Assembly (NCBI GenBank): GCA_017470145.1
Contig: JAFUFB010000030.1
Coordinates: 186,001 to 250,000, forward strand
Origin: Clostridia bacterium
Lineage (GTDB): Bacteria > Bacillota > Clostridia > Christensenellales > Aristaeellaceae
Length of the DNA stretch: 64,000 nucleotides
Direction: 5' to 3'
Shown: in pieces, positions 5,560-57,529 of the stretch
Numbering within the stretch: position 1 is the stretch's first letter
Layout of the letters: every line of letters starts with the position of its first letter
The notes under the pieces: generated by a model
What the model was told of the DNA's origin: nothing
The model's database searches: none
The model's input: the letters and a program-made list of their open reading frames with translations, nothing else
Position numbers and translations under genes: made by a program

Positions 5560-5590
5560 ACCCAGTTGACTGAGGAAACGACGATGAAAA

Positions 5591-19081: not shown

Positions 19082-19120
19082 ACCCTTTTCCTACTCGTCT
19101 TCTCCGTCTATTGAGTTCTC

Positions 19121-19207
19121 CGCAAGCTTGATCGTCGCGACAGCGTTCCTTAAAGCTTGAGATTTGATTTTTTGAAACGCCCGCCATCGGCGGTCGAAAA
19201 ATCAAAT
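19121..19207 (-). repeat. element B at the ruvA stop codon (degenerate second hairpin)
   Basis: Hairpin I: ATTTGATTTTT (19162-19172) is the exact inverse of 19197-19207, which includes the ruvA stop TGA (19202-19204) and the preceding codon; the core is CCGCC-GAT-GGCGG. Hairpin II is reduced: CAAGCTT (19123-19129) with AAGCTTG (19153-19159), enclosing the conserved CGCGAC motif. Confidence 0.65.
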
Positions 19208-19813
19208 TCCCGCCATGTTCCGCAGCGCCAGGCGGATCAGCTCCTCCGCCTTGTCGCTCTGGTCCTTCACCTTGGACACGGCGTTCCGGGCCTCCATGGC
19301 AGAGTAGCCCAAAGCCGTCAAGGCTTCGATGGCTTCCATCACATGGTCCGCCTGCCCGGCCATCACTGGCGCGGCGCCGGCTCCACCCTCCGCCTGCAAA
19401 GAAACATCCGCCTGGGTCACCTTCTCCTTCAGCTCCAGGGCGATGCGCTGGGCCGTCTTCTTGCCGATACCCGGCGCCCGGGACATGGCATTCACATCCC
19501 CCAGCAGAATCGCCAGGTTCAAGTCCCGCAGGGGCATGGCTCCCAGGAGCCCCAGGGCGGTTTTCGCCCCCACGCCGGAGACGGAGGTCAGCTGCAGAAA
19601 CATCTGCTTCTCCTCCTTCGTGGCAAAGCCGTACAGCTCCATGGCGTCATCCCGCACATTCAGCACGGTGTAGCACCGCATGGTCTCCCCCTGGGCGGGA
19701 GCGGCCTGCAGGGTGTTGTTGGAACAGCTCAGCTGCCAGCCCACCCCCGCCGCCAGCAGCACCAGGCTGCCGTTGGCCTTTTCGCAAACCTGGCCTTCAA
19801 TAAAAGCGTACAT
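19202..19813 (-). CDS. ruvA: Holliday junction DNA-binding protein RuvA
   Basis: 203 residues from ATG 19813 (MYAFIEGQVCEK), chosen because AAGGAG lies 7 nt upstream and family members begin here; an upstream in-frame ATG only adds palindrome-derived sequence. Contains the N-terminal OB fold, two helix-hairpin-helix motifs (LTSVSGVGAKTALGLL and APGIGKKTAQRIALEL) and the C-terminal RuvB-binding domain (ALTALGYSAMEARNAV). It tetramerises on Holliday junctions. Confidence 0.95.
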   Translation of the reverse strand: MYAFIEGQVCEKANGSLVLLAAGVGWQLSCSNNTLQAAPAQGETMRCYTVLNVRDDAMELYGFATKEEKQMFLQLTSVSGVGAKTALGLLGAMPLRDLNLAILLGDVNAMSRAPGIGKKTAQRIALELKEKVTQADVSLQAEGGAGAAPVMAGQADHVMEAIEALTALGYSAMEARNAVSKVKDQSDKAEELIRLALRNMAGI

Positions 19814-24581: not shown

Positions 24582-24605
24582 GGTATTTTTTAATGTTCTT
24601 TTCCG

Positions 24606-24705
24606 CAACCTCAATTGTCGGAACTCCCAACTGGGGAGATTCCTCTGTTTCGGTTGAGCAGAGCATGGACGAAATTTCCGCCACTGGCGGTCGTCAATGC
24701 TCTGC
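24606..24705 (-). repeat. element B at the glpK stop codon
   Basis: Hairpin I: 24658-24672 (GCAGAGCATGGACGA) is the inverse of 24691-24705 in 14 of 15 positions; the latter holds the last three codons of glpK and its stop TGA (24694-24696). Core CCGCC-AGT-GGCGG. Hairpin II: CAACC/GGTTG outer arms (24652-24656 and 24606-24610), inner CTCCC/GGGAG, with the conserved CAGAG and CGACAA motifs between. Confidence 0.75.
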
Positions 24706-35578: not shown

Positions 35579-37018
35579 TTAATCTGAATAGAGGGCGGGA
35601 TTTTTCTCCGGAATCCGCAGCATCAGCGTCTCCTCCTCCTCGTCCCACTCCCAGGAGCCGTCCAGCGCCCGGGTCAGGAAGTCCACGCGGATAAAATGCC
35701 CCTCGGCGAACTCGAAATCGATGTTCTCCGTCACCATTTCCAGCCCATCCACTGTGGACACGAAGCCCGCGTCCTCGTTCAGCAGCGCCAGGGTGAATCC
35801 CTGGGCCTCCAGAATCAGGGAATCCCCTTCATCCGTCAGCTGCCAGCCTTCCACCGCGCTACACAGGTCGTCCAGGCTGACTCGAATATCCTCCTCAAAC
35901 CGCTGCAGCCGGGGAGAGCGCACCACGGGCACCCCATCCTCCAGCGCGGTCCACTGCATGCTTTCGCCGCTGTCGTTCAGCACGATCCAACCCGCCAGAT
36001 CCTCATAGACGGCGGCTGCCTCCGGCTCCGCCGTCGGGACGGGGGAGGGCGTTTGCTCCACCTCGTCCAGGTCGATCTCCTCAATCACCTCCGGCACCTC
36101 GGTCGGCGTTTCTGTCGGCTCCGCTGTCGGTTCCGCTGTTGGCGCTTCCGTGGGTTGCTCTGTAGGCTCCTCTGTCGGGGCAGCGGTAGGTGCTTCGGTT
36201 GGCGCTTCCGTCGGTTCTGTTGTGGGCGCTGCGGTTACCGTCTGGATCACCGTGCTCTTCGCTGACTCTGTTGCCGCCAAAGTGGATTCCTGATTTTCTT
36301 CCGCAGTCTCCGCAATAGCTGCCCCTGTCGGAGCCTCCGTGGGTACTGCTGTTGGTTCCGCAGTCGGCGCCTCTGTCGGTTCTGCCGTAGGGACTTCTGT
36401 AGGCTCAGCCGTCGGTTCCGCGGTCGGAGCCTCCGTGGGTTTCGCGGTGGGCTCCACGGTAGGTGTTGCCGTCGGCGCTTCCGTGGGCTCCGCTGTCGGC
36501 GCTGCCGTCTCCGGCACAGGAGTTTCCGTCACTTCCGGCGTCGCCGTCTCCTCTCCCGGGTAAGGCGCAGCGTCCGGATTTTCAAACAAATTGGTCTGGG
36601 TGGCCCGGCCGGCGATGCCATCCACCGTCAAGCCATTATAATATTGGAAGCGACGCACCGCGTTCCGCGTCTGTCCGCCGTAGGCGCCGTCCGCCGCCCC
36701 TTCCGGCAGATAGCCCATCTCGATCAACCGCTCCTGCAGCCGCTTAACCTCCTCCCCCTTATCCCCCTGGGTCAGGTTGTGATAGGCCTTGGTGTTAGGG
36801 GTAATGGTGGGCACAGGCGCCGGCGTCACAGACACGGTCGGCGCCGGAGTGGCCGTCTCTTCCAGCAGCGGCGTTACTTCCATCTCTTCCGCCACCTCCA
36901 CCGCCGTAACCACGGGGGAAGGAGTCGGCACCGGGGTCACAGAAGGCGTAGACGTGCTTTCCACCGCCACCACCAGGGTTGTGGCCATATAGGCCAGCAG
37001 GGTCTTCAGAAAATCCAT
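35579..37018 (-). CDS. secreted peptidoglycan-binding protein with PT-repeat linker
   Basis: 479 residues from ATG 37018. A short hydrophobic signal or anchor (LLAYMATTLVVAV), a Pro/Thr linker, a PG_binding_1 domain (about 76-135: LTQGDKGEEVKRLQERLIEMGYLPEG...YGGQTRNAVRRFQ in part), then about 180 residues of PTEAPTAEP-type repeats in two blocks. The C-terminus (about 345-479) resembles the copper-amine-oxidase N-terminal-type beta domain (RVSLDDLCSAVEGWQLTDEG, FIRVDFLTRALDGSW). A surface protein bound to the cell wall. Its promoter overlaps that of recD2. Confidence 0.82.
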   Translation of the reverse strand: MDFLKTLLAYMATTLVVAVESTSTPSVTPVPTPSPVVTAVEVAEEMEVTPLLEETATPAPTVSVTPAPVPTITPNTKAYHNLTQGDKGEEVKRLQERLIEMGYLPEGAADGAYGGQTRNAVRRFQYYNGLTVDGIAGRATQTNLFENPDAAPYPGEETATPEVTETPVPETAAPTAEPTEAPTATPTVEPTAKPTEAPTAEPTAEPTEVPTAEPTEAPTAEPTAVPTEAPTGAAIAETAEENQESTLAATESAKSTVIQTVTAAPTTEPTEAPTEAPTAAPTEEPTEQPTEAPTAEPTAEPTETPTEVPEVIEEIDLDEVEQTPSPVPTAEPEAAAVYEDLAGWIVLNDSGESMQWTALEDGVPVVRSPRLQRFEEDIRVSLDDLCSAVEGWQLTDEGDSLILEAQGFTLALLNEDAGFVSTVDGLEMVTENIDFEFAEGHFIRVDFLTRALDGSWEWDEEEETLMLRIPEKNPALYSD

Positions 37019-43997: not shown

Positions 43998-44918
43998 ATG
44001 GCAAGAAATAAGGAAAAAGAATTTGACACCATCAATGACGGTTCCCACGCGATCCGCAAATTCTCCATCGGCGATTTTATCATCATCCTGGTGCTGGTGA
44101 TTCTGTGCGCCACCTGCATACTGCCCTTCATTCACCTGGCGGCCAAGTCCATTTCCAGCAACACGGCGGTCATGCAGAAATCCGTGGTGCTGCTGCCCAA
44201 GGGTGTCAATTTTGACGCCTACGCCTCCATCTTCCAGGATGGTACCCTGGTGCACTCCTTTGTGTACAGCGTAGGGGTGGTGGCGCTGTTCACCCTGCTG
44301 GGCATGATCGCCTGCACCTGCGCAGCCTATCCCCTGTCCAAAAAGCGCCTGAAGGGCCGGACCTTCTTCACCATCCTGCTGATGATCCCCATGTACTTCA
44401 ACGCTGGGCTGATTCCGACCTACCTGCTGTACAAGAATCTGGGCATGCTGAACACCATGTGGGTGCTGATTCTGCCGCTGATTTATTCCTCCTATAATAT
44501 GCTGATCATGAAGAACTACTTCCAGAGCAATATTCCAGACAGCCTGGAGGAAGCGGCTTTCCTGGATGGGGCCTCTAATTTCCAGATTCTTTTCCAGATC
44601 GTGCTGCCCCTGTCTCTGCCCATCATCGCGACCCTGAGCCTGTTCTACGCCGTGGGCCGGTGGAATGCCTATGCGGACAATAAGTATTACATCACCAAGG
44701 AAGCCCTGAAGATGATCCAGTACAAGCTGTATCAGCTGGTTTCCTCGGCGACGGAGGCCCAGACCGCCACCCTGTCCGAGGCCATCGAGGTCACCAGCAC
44801 CCCCGAGGTGCTCCAGGCCGCCTGCATCATGTTCGCCACATTGCCGATCATTTGCATCTATCCCTTCCTGCAGAAATACTTTGTGAAGGGTGTAATGGTT
44901 GGAGCTGTAAAGGGTTAA
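43998..44918 (+). CDS. sugar ABC importer permease, YtcP type
   Basis: 306 residues from ATG 43998 (MARNKEKEFDTIND), AAGGAGG upstream. Six membrane helices, EAA loop EAAFLDGASNFQILFQIVLP, and the characteristic end LPIICIYPFLQKYFVKGVMVG. Partner of the LplB-type permease. Its stop codon (44916-44918) is inside hairpin I of an element B. Confidence 0.92.
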   Translation: MARNKEKEFDTINDGSHAIRKFSIGDFIIILVLVILCATCILPFIHLAAKSISSNTAVMQKSVVLLPKGVNFDAYASIFQDGTLVHSFVYSVGVVALFTLLGMIACTCAAYPLSKKRLKGRTFFTILLMIPMYFNAGLIPTYLLYKNLGMLNTMWVLILPLIYSSYNMLIMKNYFQSNIPDSLEEAAFLDGASNFQILFQIVLPLSLPIIATLSLFYAVGRWNAYADNKYYITKEALKMIQYKLYQLVSSATEAQTATLSEAIEVTSTPEVLQAACIMFATLPIICIYPFLQKYFVKGVMVGAVKG

Positions 44919-45020
44919 AATTTCGCGACCGCCTGCGGCGGAAATTTCGCGAAATTTTAACAGAGTCCGCACAGAGCAGTCTCCCCTGTGGGGAGCCGCG
45001 ACAATGCGGACGACCGGGTG
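44914..45020 (+). repeat. element B copy 1 at the YtcP-type permease stop codon
   Basis: Hairpin I: GTTAAAATTTCGCGA (44914-44928), which includes the stop TAA, is the exact inverse of 44947-44961; core CCGCC-TGC-GGCGG (44929-44941). Hairpin II: GTCCGCA and TGCGGAC outer arms, CTCCCC/GGGGAG inner arms, with CAGAGC and CGCGACAA between; it ends in CGACCGG. Confidence 0.85.
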
Positions 45021-45118
45021 AGAAATCTGCGACCGCCAGTGACGGAAATCTCGCAGATTTCTCACAGAGCCAACAAGGAGCGAGCTCGCCAGTGGCGAGT
45101 CGCGACTATGTTAGCGAC
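45018..45118 (+). repeat. element B copy 2, tandem
   Basis: Hairpin I: GTGAGAAATCTGCG (45018-45031) is the exact inverse of 45052-45065; its core CCGCCAGTGACGG has one changed base. Hairpin II: CTCGCC/GGCGAG inner arms, GC-AACA/TGTT-GC outer arms, same unpaired motifs. The arms differ in sequence from copy 1, although the two are adjacent. The rest of the 333-nt gap (45119-45251) holds only a small GC hairpin and the ribosome site of the next gene. Confidence 0.8.
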
Positions 45119-45251
45119 CGGGACCCTGCTGGGATGTACGCAGAAAAAAACTAACTTCGCGGCGAAGCCGCCAAAACAAATCGCCAAGTGAACCTAACCA
45201 ATTGTGTTATTCGGAGCTATGCTCTGAAAATAAAAAAGGAGGAGATCCCCT

Positions 45252-55518: not shown

Positions 55519-55543
55519 GGGTTTTTCCTCCATTCATTATCCG

Positions 55544-55905
55544 GTCGCCCGCATTGTCGCGACTCCACACTGTGGATCGGATTCGCACGCGCACCGCGGG
55601 CGCAAGCGCCTCACGCACCGCGCGCGACATGATCGCTCTGTGCGGGCTCTGTAAGAATTTTTCGCAATTCCCGCCACTGGCGGGCGAAATTCTTTGTCCG
55701 GTCGCCCGCATTGTCGCGACTCCACACTGTGGAGCTCGCTCTGTGCGGGCTCTGTAAGAATTTTTCGCAATTCCCGCCACTGGCGGGCGAAAAATTCTTT
55801 GTCCGGTCGCCCGCATTGTCGCGACTCCACACTGTGGAGCTCGCTCTGTGCGGGCTCTGTAAGAATTTTTCGCAATTCCCGCCACTGGCGGGCGAAAAAT
55901 TCTTA
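55544..55905 (-). repeat. element B, three tandem copies at the lysC stop codon
   Basis: Copies 1 and 2 (counted from lysC) have a 105-bp period; copy 3 has about 52 extra bases in its second hairpin. Hairpin I: CGAAAAATTCTTA (55893-55905), which includes the lysC stop (55903-55905), is the exact inverse of 55860-55872; core CCCGCC-AGT-GGCGGG. Hairpin II on the minus strand: GCCCGCA/TGCGGGC and CTCCAC/GTGGAG with CAGAGC and CGCGACAA between. This fills the 384-nt rmlD-lysC gap. Confidence 0.85.
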
Positions 55906-57225
55906 CCCAACAAACTCATGATAGATCGCACGAATCGTGGCTTCAAAGTCGCTGTCGTTGACACCGACGATGATGCTCAGCTCGCTGGAGCCCTGGTCGA
56001 TCATGCGGACATTGATCCGGGCCCGGCTCATGGCGGAGAACAGCCGCGCCGCGGTGCCGCAGTTGCGCACCATGCCCCGGCCTACCGTCGCGATGATGGA
56101 CAAATTGTCGTTCACCGCGACGGAACCGCTGCCCCGGACCATCTCCTCCAGGCGGGCCATGATCTCCTCCCGATGAGGGGCTAGCAGCTCACTCTTCACC
56201 ACCACGCACATGGAATCGATGCCCGTGGGCATATGCTCAAAGGAAATGCCGTATTCCTCCAGCACGGAGAGCACCTTCCGGCCAAAGCCCACCTCGCTGT
56301 TCATCATGTTCTTCTCCACATAGATGACGCTATAACCCTTGTGGCCGGCGATGCCGGTAATGGTGGGCACGGACACCTCGTTGGGGGCGTTCTTGGTAAT
56401 CAGGGTGCCGGGATGATAGGGCTTATTGGTGTTGCGGATGTTGGTGGGAATCCCCGCCTGATGCACCGGGAACATAGCGTCCTCATGCAGCACGGAGGCG
56501 CCCATATGGCTCAGCTCCCGCAGCTCCTTATAGGTAATGGCGGAGATTTCGGAAGGGCCGTCCACAATCCGGGGATCCGCCATCAGGAAGCCGGACACAT
56601 CCGTCCAGTTTTCATACACATCGGCATTCACCGCCCGGGACACCAAGGCCCCTGTAATATCGCTGCCGCCCCGGGAGAAGGTCACCACCTCGCCGTTTTC
56701 CAGCGCGCCGTAGAAACCGGGCACCACGGCGGACTGCCCATCCGCCAGCAGGGCGGAAAGCAGCTCCTGGGTCTTCTCATCATCCAATGTGCCGTCAGCG
56801 TGAAAACGAATCCCCTCCGCGGCATCCACAAACTTCCAGCCCAGATAATCCGCCATCAGCAGGCCGCAGAGATATTCCCCGCGGCTGGCGCACCAATCCC
56901 GATTCTTCCCGCTTTCGATGCCCTCCGCCACCTGATTCAGGGCGGACTCGATATCCACCTTCAAATGCAGGGCCTGGGCGATGGAAAGATAGCGCTCCCG
57001 AATCATCCCAAAAGGCTCCTGGATGGGTTTCCCTTCCGCTGCCAGGGCATGACAGGCGTACAGCAGATCCGTCACCTTGTCATCGGAGGCAAACCTTTTT
57101 CCCGGCGCACTGGGCACCAGATATCTACGCGTGGGCTCCAGCTCCAGGATGCTGCGAACCTTGCGGAATTGTTCATCATTGGCCAAACTGCTGCCGCCAA
57201 ACTTGGTGACAATACATTCAAGCAC
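55903..57225 (-). CDS. lysC: aspartate kinase
   Basis: 440 residues from GTG 57225 (MLECIVTKFGGSSLANDEQF), chosen because GGGGAGG lies 9 nt upstream and the promoter at 57260-57288 starts transcripts near 57253; the longer open frame to 57480 is only the translated tandem repeat. Kinase motifs KFGGSS, FYGALENGEVVTFSRGGSD in part, and two C-terminal ACT domains (MCVVVKSELL, NLSIIATVGRGM, SSELSIIVGVNDSD) that probably bind lysine or threonine. First step from aspartate to lysine, methionine and threonine. Confidence 0.93.
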   Translation of the reverse strand: MLECIVTKFGGSSLANDEQFRKVRSILELEPTRRYLVPSAPGKRFASDDKVTDLLYACHALAAEGKPIQEPFGMIRERYLSIAQALHLKVDIESALNQVAEGIESGKNRDWCASRGEYLCGLLMADYLGWKFVDAAEGIRFHADGTLDDEKTQELLSALLADGQSAVVPGFYGALENGEVVTFSRGGSDITGALVSRAVNADVYENWTDVSGFLMADPRIVDGPSEISAITYKELRELSHMGASVLHEDAMFPVHQAGIPTNIRNTNKPYHPGTLITKNAPNEVSVPTITGIAGHKGYSVIYVEKNMMNSEVGFGRKVLSVLEEYGISFEHMPTGIDSMCVVVKSELLAPHREEIMARLEEMVRGSGSVAVNDNLSIIATVGRGMVRNCGTAARLFSAMSRARINVRMIDQGSSELSIIVGVNDSDFEATIRAIYHEFVG

Positions 57226-57297: not shown

Positions 57298-57520
57298 CGC
57301 ACCCCCGCTCCGCGGGGGTGCTTCGATCACATTCTTTTTCCGCCCAGCTCTTGGGCCATCAAGCTTTTTTTCGCACTCCCCGCTCCGCGGGGGTGCTTCG
57401 ATCACATTCTTTTTCCGCCCAGCTCTTGGGCCATCAAGCTTTTTTTCGCACTCCCCGCTCCGCGGGGGTGCTTCGATCACGTTCTTTTCCCGCCCAGCTC
57501 TTGGGCTGTTAATCAGTTTT
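57298..57520. repeat. 75-bp tandem repeat array (about three units) with family A palindromes
   Basis: The units are in register at 57325, 57400 and 57475 (GATCAC). Each holds a family A palindrome (CCCCGCTCCGCGGGGGTGC) and a second palindrome CCGCCCAGCTCTTGGGCC. Since 75 nt is 25 codons, the minus frame stays open through all units (IEAPPRSGECEKKLDGPRAG). It fills the comF-lysC gap. Confidence 0.9.
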
Positions 57521-57529
57521 TCGCTCCAC

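Follow-up and report, generated by a model that had tools for sequence, protein, structure and literature searches.

The 64,000-nt stretch of DNA analysed here (the window) contains copies of a two-hairpin repeat whose first hairpin, in part of the family, pairs the last codons and stop codon of the adjacent gene with an inverted copy of them. The reading we prefer, at a probability of about 0.48, is that of a genus-specific, non-autonomous repeat in which the gene end was duplicated, the right arm of hairpin 1 was written by fold-back, and hairpin 1 later spread as a block. The first-pass annotation of this DNA had described one and the same arrangement behind a permease gene, lysC, ruvA and glpK, and all four sites are as described, so that the observation itself is real. 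Its account of an inverted copy of the gene end also stands, with the correction that arm 1 is 15 nt long and begins right after a GG dinucleotide; to its layout of two hairpins we add a 5-nt bulge behind the core and frequent tandem units. The units in the window are the following.

44914-45121, plus strand: permease array of two tandem units
44914..45017, plus strand: permease unit 1, behind a YtcP/LplB-type permease gene (name from the first-pass annotation)
44914-44928, plus strand: left arm of permease unit 1, with a Gly base, the wobble position and then the TAA stop at 44916-44918
44929-44941, 44942-44946 and 44947-44961, plus strand: core, bulge and right arm of permease unit 1
about 44965-45011, plus strand: hairpin 2 of permease unit 1, followed by the GG end
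45018..45121, plus strand: permease unit 2 (tandem), with arm GTGAGAAATCTGCGA and a TGA inside it although no gene ends here
55541-55906, minus strand: lysC array of three units
55803..55906, minus strand: lysC unit 1 at the gene end, stop complement at 55903-55905, arms paired 15/15
55698..55801, minus strand: lysC unit 2, outermost left arm now mismatched, right arm still complementary to the lysC end
55541..55696, minus strand: lysC unit 3, with a second palindromic repeat nested inside hairpin 2
24602..24705, minus strand: glpK-end unit, left arm coding the native Ala-Glu-His-stop, stop complement at 24694-24696, one arm mismatch
24590..24598, minus strand: apparent displaced native glpK end GAACATTAA, directly behind the glpK unit
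19119..19208, minus strand: ruvA-end unit, stop complement at 19202-19204, hairpin 2 shortened

In several second units of the wider collection (L041, L043, L153 and L248), too, the left arm does not pair with the right arm's outer end. Palindromic repeats nested in hairpin 2, as at 55541-55696, also occur at L004, L009, L010 and L014; one example is CCAAATCTTTGATTTGG, with outer arms GAGCTGT/ACAGCTC, another a GCGCGGTGCGTGAGGCGC repeat, and at all of these places the outer arms of the nested repeats look site-matched too. Other repeats in the window are one with a 12-nt period (36086-36504), three 75-nt tandem copies adjoining the lysC start (57303-57527), and a G+C-rich hairpin family CCCCGCTCCGCGGGG at 5588, 8409, 19854, 30302 and 30342.

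Architecture of the unit

The unit is about 104 nt long and consists of GG, a 15-nt left arm, a 5-bp core with a 3-nt loop, a bulge, a 15-nt right arm and hairpin 2, which is made of two stem parts and an internal loop. The core of hairpin 1 is mostly CCGCC-NNN-GGCGG, and the 5-nt bulge behind it is mostly AAATT. Two types are told apart by their tails, which begin with TCAACC and end with TTGCGG in type II, and begin with AGAGCC and end with GACCGG in type I. Tandem arrangement is frequent, chiefly among type I units behind sugar-permease genes. No terminal inverted repeats of the unit are visible by eye.

Twenty-one units of the host genome align over about 100 columns nearly without gaps, the exceptions being four one-base gaps and the ruvA unit, in which hairpin 2 is 14 columns short. 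In this alignment, a structure of 37 pairs has standard pairs in 95.8% of 768 cells, with both sides changed in 149 pair cells (39.7 in shuffles); the covariation score is 0.535, compared with 0.149 for shuffles and at most 0.084 for the slid structure. Three copies from the window have RNA and DNA fold z-scores of -4.4 to -8.9.

An ordinary intrinsic terminator is excluded, in agreement with the first-pass annotation, by the 184 of 195 copies without a T-run behind the stem; only 11 have one within 14 nt. Known RNA families of Rfam are likewise excluded, as no covariance model reaches its gathering score anywhere in the window, and the single match in a search of 44860-45180 (E 0.39) lies under the cut-off of its own family. 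A general repeat search of the window returned mostly codon-biased matches.

Distribution and sampling

When genomes are searched with a covariance model, the unit is present in 37 of 37 genomes of the genus, with 1-41 matches each, and in none of 24 genomes that belong to the order's other families; the genus-wide copy numbers are lower bounds because only 65 candidates per genome were scored. The host genome (2.45 Mb in 30 contigs, assembly 84% complete) has 30 good copies. A pattern scan of GTDB species contigs, which detects part of type II only and perhaps leaves the host genome and its near relatives outside, found 20 stretches in assemblies titled Clostridia, Clostridiales or Christensenellaceae, the named sources being goat, roe deer and red deer. 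The repeat is thus known from one group of gut bacteria and, among the genomes searched, is specific to the genus.

For statistics, 208 copies were gathered (192, plus 16 from a second collection), mainly from the best-scoring model matches, which biases the sample towards well-paired copies. Arm and GG statistics use the 179 copies kept after removal of duplicates, odd lengths and poorly paired inner arms, and gene-end statistics the 195 kept after removal of duplicates and poorly paired inner arms. Copies with a paired outer arm form class P; counts of class M include class A, with outer ends ATGAA/TGAAT, which makes up 10 of the 85 class-M copies. GG lies immediately 5' of hairpin 1 in 174 of 179 copies.

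Arms complementary to native gene ends

The stop codon of an open frame of at least 90 codons lies inside the left arm in 64 of the 195 non-redundant copies, 49 of class P and 15 of class M/A. The other 131, without a detected gene stop in the arm, include tandem units, short contig ends and some true gene ends on short stretches (L079, L279). Within the 49 class-P copies, of which L039 is a tandem unit with a frame through it and no gene and L208, with a 90-codon frame, is doubtful, 287 of the 292 pairs between GG and the end of the stop are Watson-Crick, with complete pairing in 44 copies. Swapping right arms between copies, a control that preserves arm composition and not phylogeny, leaves a mean of 138 pairs (maximum 162) and 1.7 complete copies (maximum 6). 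The stops are 24 TAA, 21 TGA and 4 TAG. The first-pass annotation had proposed counting the arms that match the adjacent stop and had held that arms follow the host gene; by this count, the statement applies to the 49 paired gene-end copies and is not general.

Orthologues with and without the element agree in several of these ends. In every row listed, including orthologues without the element, guaA ends in IEWE and a second gene in DGI; the usual lysC end is HEFVG (EFVE or EFVA in some), whether the element is present or not, and ruvA in unfilled species ends in MAGI, MAGM, MAGF or MAGV, with one MATQI. Seven of the nine glpK genes most similar to the host's, which is itself counted, end in W(A/V)EH, the exceptions being WAEA in filled G007 and WAERG in G027. 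Two of five unfilled orthologues of the gene at L040 end in WDNN (G010, G062), and the gene at L258 ends in PLWD in G026 and has a variable last residue in other unfilled orthologues. Judged by these comparisons, the gene end in the left arm is native for guaA, glpK, lysC, ruvA and the DGI gene, and the earlier claim that one arm of the first hairpin matches the native end, with the other arm its inverted copy, is borne out. For permeases ending in KG, a scan of such ends found 46, with 37 scored as filled and 9 as empty, although the element is in fact present at three or more of the nine (L214, L252, L392); because only KG ends were covered, the scan demonstrates the existence of unfilled KG ends rather than their generality.

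The possibility that orthologous genes already ended in a plain ancestral stem, which the first-pass annotation had named as an outcome that would tell against its reading, is rejected. Among 163 orthologues in eight gene sets, 22 have an intact core and 141 do not, and an inverted partner of at least 9 nt was found in 7 of the 141. Four of these seven (L361, L362, L271, L167) are elements overlooked by the core filter, which leaves three plain partners (L348, L350, L316), none in the element's register. Decayed or interrupted copies are recognizable by eye at L160, L163, L165, L313, L319, L331, L360, L363 and L431, and a rough motif scan flagged element pieces, some falsely, in 22 of the 141.

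Two further features of guaA ends are recorded here. In G023, G001, G002 and G036 (L321, L323, L314, L316), the guaA end is followed immediately by an inverted copy of the last codons, with neither core nor hairpin 2; at L316 it reads ATCGAATGGGAG-TAA-TCCCATTCGAT, and the other three have a mismatch. Units at L072, L076, L250 and L274 stand at apparent duplicated guaA 3' ends and have a GAATGA arm, mostly behind GAGTGG; these guaA-like ends are possibly attachment sites of integrated islands.

Native ends behind the element

In guaA, glpK and the gene at L040, the native end persists behind the element as well, so that the target is present three times: direct, inverted and direct. Unfilled guaA of G005 reads GAATGATTGCCAAAAACCCGG after TGG, and in both L262 (guaA, G030) and L279 (guaA-like gene, G035) GAATGA precedes the element and AATGATT(G/A)C..AAAACCCGG follows it. 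L256 (guaA) and L250 (guaA-like end) match the guaA sequence of G007 likewise, L256 from the stop onward, and the direct repeat at L040 is clear. At glpK, AGAGCATTGA precedes the element and AGAACATTAA follows it, the native sequence in the close genome G063 being GAACATTAG; taken alone, only the right border is significant (1.8%), since 25% of shuffles match the native end of G063 as well as the left arm does.

Twenty-one class-P copies of type II, picked by hand, give a direct-repeat score of 103, compared with a mean of 77.5 (maximum 98 of 5000) when sequences are permuted between gene families, and a direct repeat of about 5-14 nt is present in part of them. Six of the 21 score only 2 and one scores 3; no clear repeat is seen by this score at L056, L069, L263, L256, L071, L079 and L271, and the reading as target duplication is weakened by L067 and other copies that are followed by another partial unit. 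The 72 class-M copies have no clear direct repeat (p 0.07). In a set of 171 copies, 23 score at least 7 (5.9 expected), an excess largely due to tandem units because arrays and single copies are mixed there.

At L258, the target matches 14/14 in direct and 15/15 in inverted orientation. The second unit at L272 has the same inner arm, GGTTTTGC beside GCGCC, so that the right repeat of L258 may be a decayed second unit; some right-border repeats, L258 among them, may thus be left-overs of decayed tandem units. For lysC, the host arm is unlike the native sequence of G063. For the permease at L055, the G063 native sequence resembles the host left arm over its length (score 11; 0 of 500 shuffles); there is no second copy within 120 nt, and GGATAAGTTTTCC is seen by eye farther on.

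Copies that carry their own arms

Another part of the family, judged from the arm sequences, carries its own arms. The outer ends GCGAA/TGAGG recur in 61 of the 85 class-M copies, at many different sites; the tandem units L036, L039 and L042 have stops in the arm without a gene; and four G009 units, at three permease ends and in one tandem position, share one identical arm. Sets from G022 and G029, spread over many sites, also have fixed arms. The contention of the first-pass annotation that arms cannot come from transposition of a fixed sequence finds support at class-P gene ends and fails for these class-M copies and for others that bring their own stop.

In some genes, the element seems to have changed the protein end. 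Six copies of GCGAA/ACGAA type have a gene stop in the arm, and five of them end in WAKN, WAKD or an added-Q form (L388 ends in WTNL); as the genes differ, the element probably wrote most of the WAKN/WAKD-type ends, a counter-case being glpK, where a WAKD end is also found in unfilled G002 and G005. At the element, pyrE gained WAKN, and ruvA of G005 lost its last Phe; in both, the new last codons seem to be supplied by the element. L047, L048 and several places in G063 have a longer, composite repeat in which GGGATGTTTCACTC...GGAACGG precedes a class-M unit; in G063 its copy number is high (more than 15 matches).

How the arms change

Hairpin 1 shows no preference for G·T among its non-Watson-Crick arm pairs, with 5 G·T versus 23 mismatches in class P (5/28) and 9 versus 30 in class M (9/39), the small class U being the exception (5 versus 3, 5/8). 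The apical stem of hairpin 2 has 10 versus 7 (10/17 departures), and the two hairpins differ with a Fisher p of 0.005 without class U and 0.018 with it. Arm changes also tend to come on both sides: 17 same-genome class-P pairs with tails at least 90% alike, which are not independent of one another, have 35 double versus 6 single changes, and sets matched by C-terminal sequence similarity rather than by trees have 154 versus 28.

The genome G063, in which the last 120 nt of genes are 91-99% identical to those of the host, has 47 matches listed, of which the loci of 30 were examined. Orthologous sites differ in blocks. At the L035 permease, hairpin 1 is wholly different between the two genomes (arms, core, and TGA versus TAA), while hairpin 2 and the flanks are alike, and the G063 orthologue of L034 has its left and right arms from two different copies. 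Such a natural chimera in G063, L429, in which the left arm of one unit is joined to the right arm of another, is evidence of recombination inside hairpin 1. Left arms are kept in G063 at L005, L008 and L057, and single-arm changes in the ruvA elements of both genomes have been left uncopied. In G063, lysC and the L055 permease are unfilled, and at glpK this unit is missing and other repeat DNA is present. Arms with no relation to a gene end, which the first-pass annotation had named as an outcome that would refute it, thus do occur in part of the family: 131 copies have no detected gene stop in the arm, the class-M ends GCGAA/TGAGG are fixed, and in one permease orthologue pair the entire first hairpin differs, stop codon included.

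The low share of G·T, together with double and block changes of the arms, favours inverted copying at the DNA level with cassette exchange over selection at the RNA level. Since class M keeps unmatched outer ends, fold-back copying would not be steadily active on every copy.

Proposed mechanism and alternatives

In the reading we prefer, the element would insert directly behind GG, often within the last codons of a gene. In some of the type-II copies that are fully paired and lie at gene ends, the end of the gene would be duplicated, the upstream duplicate, with its native codons and stop, becoming the left arm and the native end staying behind the element. The right arm would then be written, at the DNA level, as an inverted copy of the left arm by fold-back synthesis, that is, by a short template switch of a replication or repair polymerase on hairpin 1, probably at or soon after insertion. 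Later, hairpin 1 with its stop codon would spread as a block between copies by recombination, which would explain the block differences between orthologous sites. Template switching is known to give rise to hairpins or to make them perfect (PMC8794818; PMC7202029). Insertion behind GG, a duplicated end, fold-back and cassette exchange together account for most of the facts; RNA selection alone and carriage of fixed arms alone each leave a set of them unexplained. Of the two explanations offered by the first-pass annotation, copying of the target and selection for a stop-codon hairpin, the former is favoured by pairing unlike RNA drift and by the direct second copy, the copying step itself being what we infer from them.

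Copying might instead belong to a dedicated, undescribed transposition step, in which the target strand, once cut, folds back onto the hairpin coming in and serves a single time as template, leaving target, inverted target and target. The target present three times at L258 (14 and 15 nt) and at L040 has the order that such a step would leave, and so does the native sequence that follows the element at guaA and, less strongly, at glpK; the persistence of unmatched class M speaks against slow later correction. With the uncorrected ruvA arms and the bulge, that persistence argues against steady later correction in general and makes copying at insertion a close rival. We nevertheless regard it as unlikely: no enzyme was found, with no Y1 match in the host assembly and no unit near the 20 Y1 loci checked; the widely spread copies (class M and the G022 and G029 sets) have fixed arms; and the AAATT bulge is unexpected from plain fold-back copying.

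Selection at the RNA level, under which the mRNA needs a 3'-end hairpin around the stop for stability, termination or translation end and the arms are selected to match, is in our view improbable. It would account for the almost perfect pairing of the gene-end copies, the stable RNA folds and the tolerance of hairpin 2 for G-U. Such selection should, however, favour G-U in hairpin 1 as well, where class U is the only class with more G·T than mismatches; near-identical copies differ by double changes (35 versus 6); 184 of 195 copies have no T-run; and 131 of 195 do not lie at a detected gene stop. The remaining alternative, that nothing is copied and an element bringing its arms and own stop lands behind GG, with arms swapped as cassettes and trivial matches to gene ends, agrees with classes M and A, the gene-less stops at L036, L042 and L039, the arm shared in G009, the altered ruvA (G005) and pyrE ends and the exchanged and chimeric hairpins of G063, but is very improbable, as it fails on the native Glu-stop of guaA, Ala-Glu-His-stop of glpK and Ile-stop of two genes with the native end behind, and already cannot accommodate the type-II copies with full pairing.

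Relation to known systems

REP/BIME sequences with RAYT (Y1) transposases (PMC2817692, PMC3733652) are similarly short, interspersed, hairpin-forming and often composite. Unlike them, the element has variable arms that follow the host gene end in part of the copies, and it is preceded by GG rather than by a tag of the GTAG/CGTC type (tag names from PMC3733652). The element is inferred to be mobile; no transposase was found for it. Y1 transposases occur in 24 of 39 genomes, with no match in the host assembly (84% complete), and a REP/RAYT partnership is rejected because no unit lies within about 1.5 kb on either side of 20 Y1 loci (of 50 matches). Strand bias as a sign of single-strand transposition is also rejected, the 43 co-directional versus 32 head-on copies being no significant departure (p 0.25); with weaker matches added, the counts are 62 versus 42 (p 0.06).

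RUP, Correia and RPE are examples of small mobile or MITE-like bacterial repeats. The element is MITE-like in being interspersed and non-autonomous, with both filled and empty orthologous sites, and such repeats are small and non-autonomous, some of them lying within genes or at gene ends (PMC2229807). The element differs from them by its internal inverted copy of the target and by having no terminal inverted repeats by eye.

Quasipalindrome correction and template-switch mutation share with it inverted copies and double changes that perfect arms (PMC8794818, PMC7202029); they are known as a mutation process and are not known to be tied to a repeat family at gene ends. Joint arm changes prevail here and G·T is not favoured, yet the ruvA and L034-orthologue arms are uncorrected, class M is unmatched and some exchanges are of blocks. 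Inverted-repeat-replacing transposition by IS1272 likewise involves mobile DNA that targets inverted repeats, but IS1272 has its own transposase gene, targets existing inverted repeats and makes no target duplication (PMC5678879); here, a plain inverted partner of at least 9 nt was seen in just 3 of the 141 core-less orthologues. Integron attC sites were dropped, no matching box motifs being visible by eye.

No described family was matched, and the first-pass annotation had likewise known of none: among the papers listed by literature searches over titles and partial abstracts, with most subscription journals outside their scope, there is no description of the element, and none of a target-templated, scar-hiding insertion. 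By this we mean the bolder claim that a mobile element duplicates a gene end and writes an inverted copy of it into itself, giving a target-matched stop-codon hairpin with the host protein unchanged, which we consider rather unlikely as it stands.

The family carries a warning that strong covariation of a stem is by itself no proof that the RNA has a function, since DNA copying is the better fit to the pattern in hairpin 1. If our reading is right, conserved genes can receive a small repeat in their coding end and keep the protein unchanged, and the family would offer a natural system, with dozens of replicates, for the origin of perfect inverted repeats by template switching, transposition chemistry or selection.
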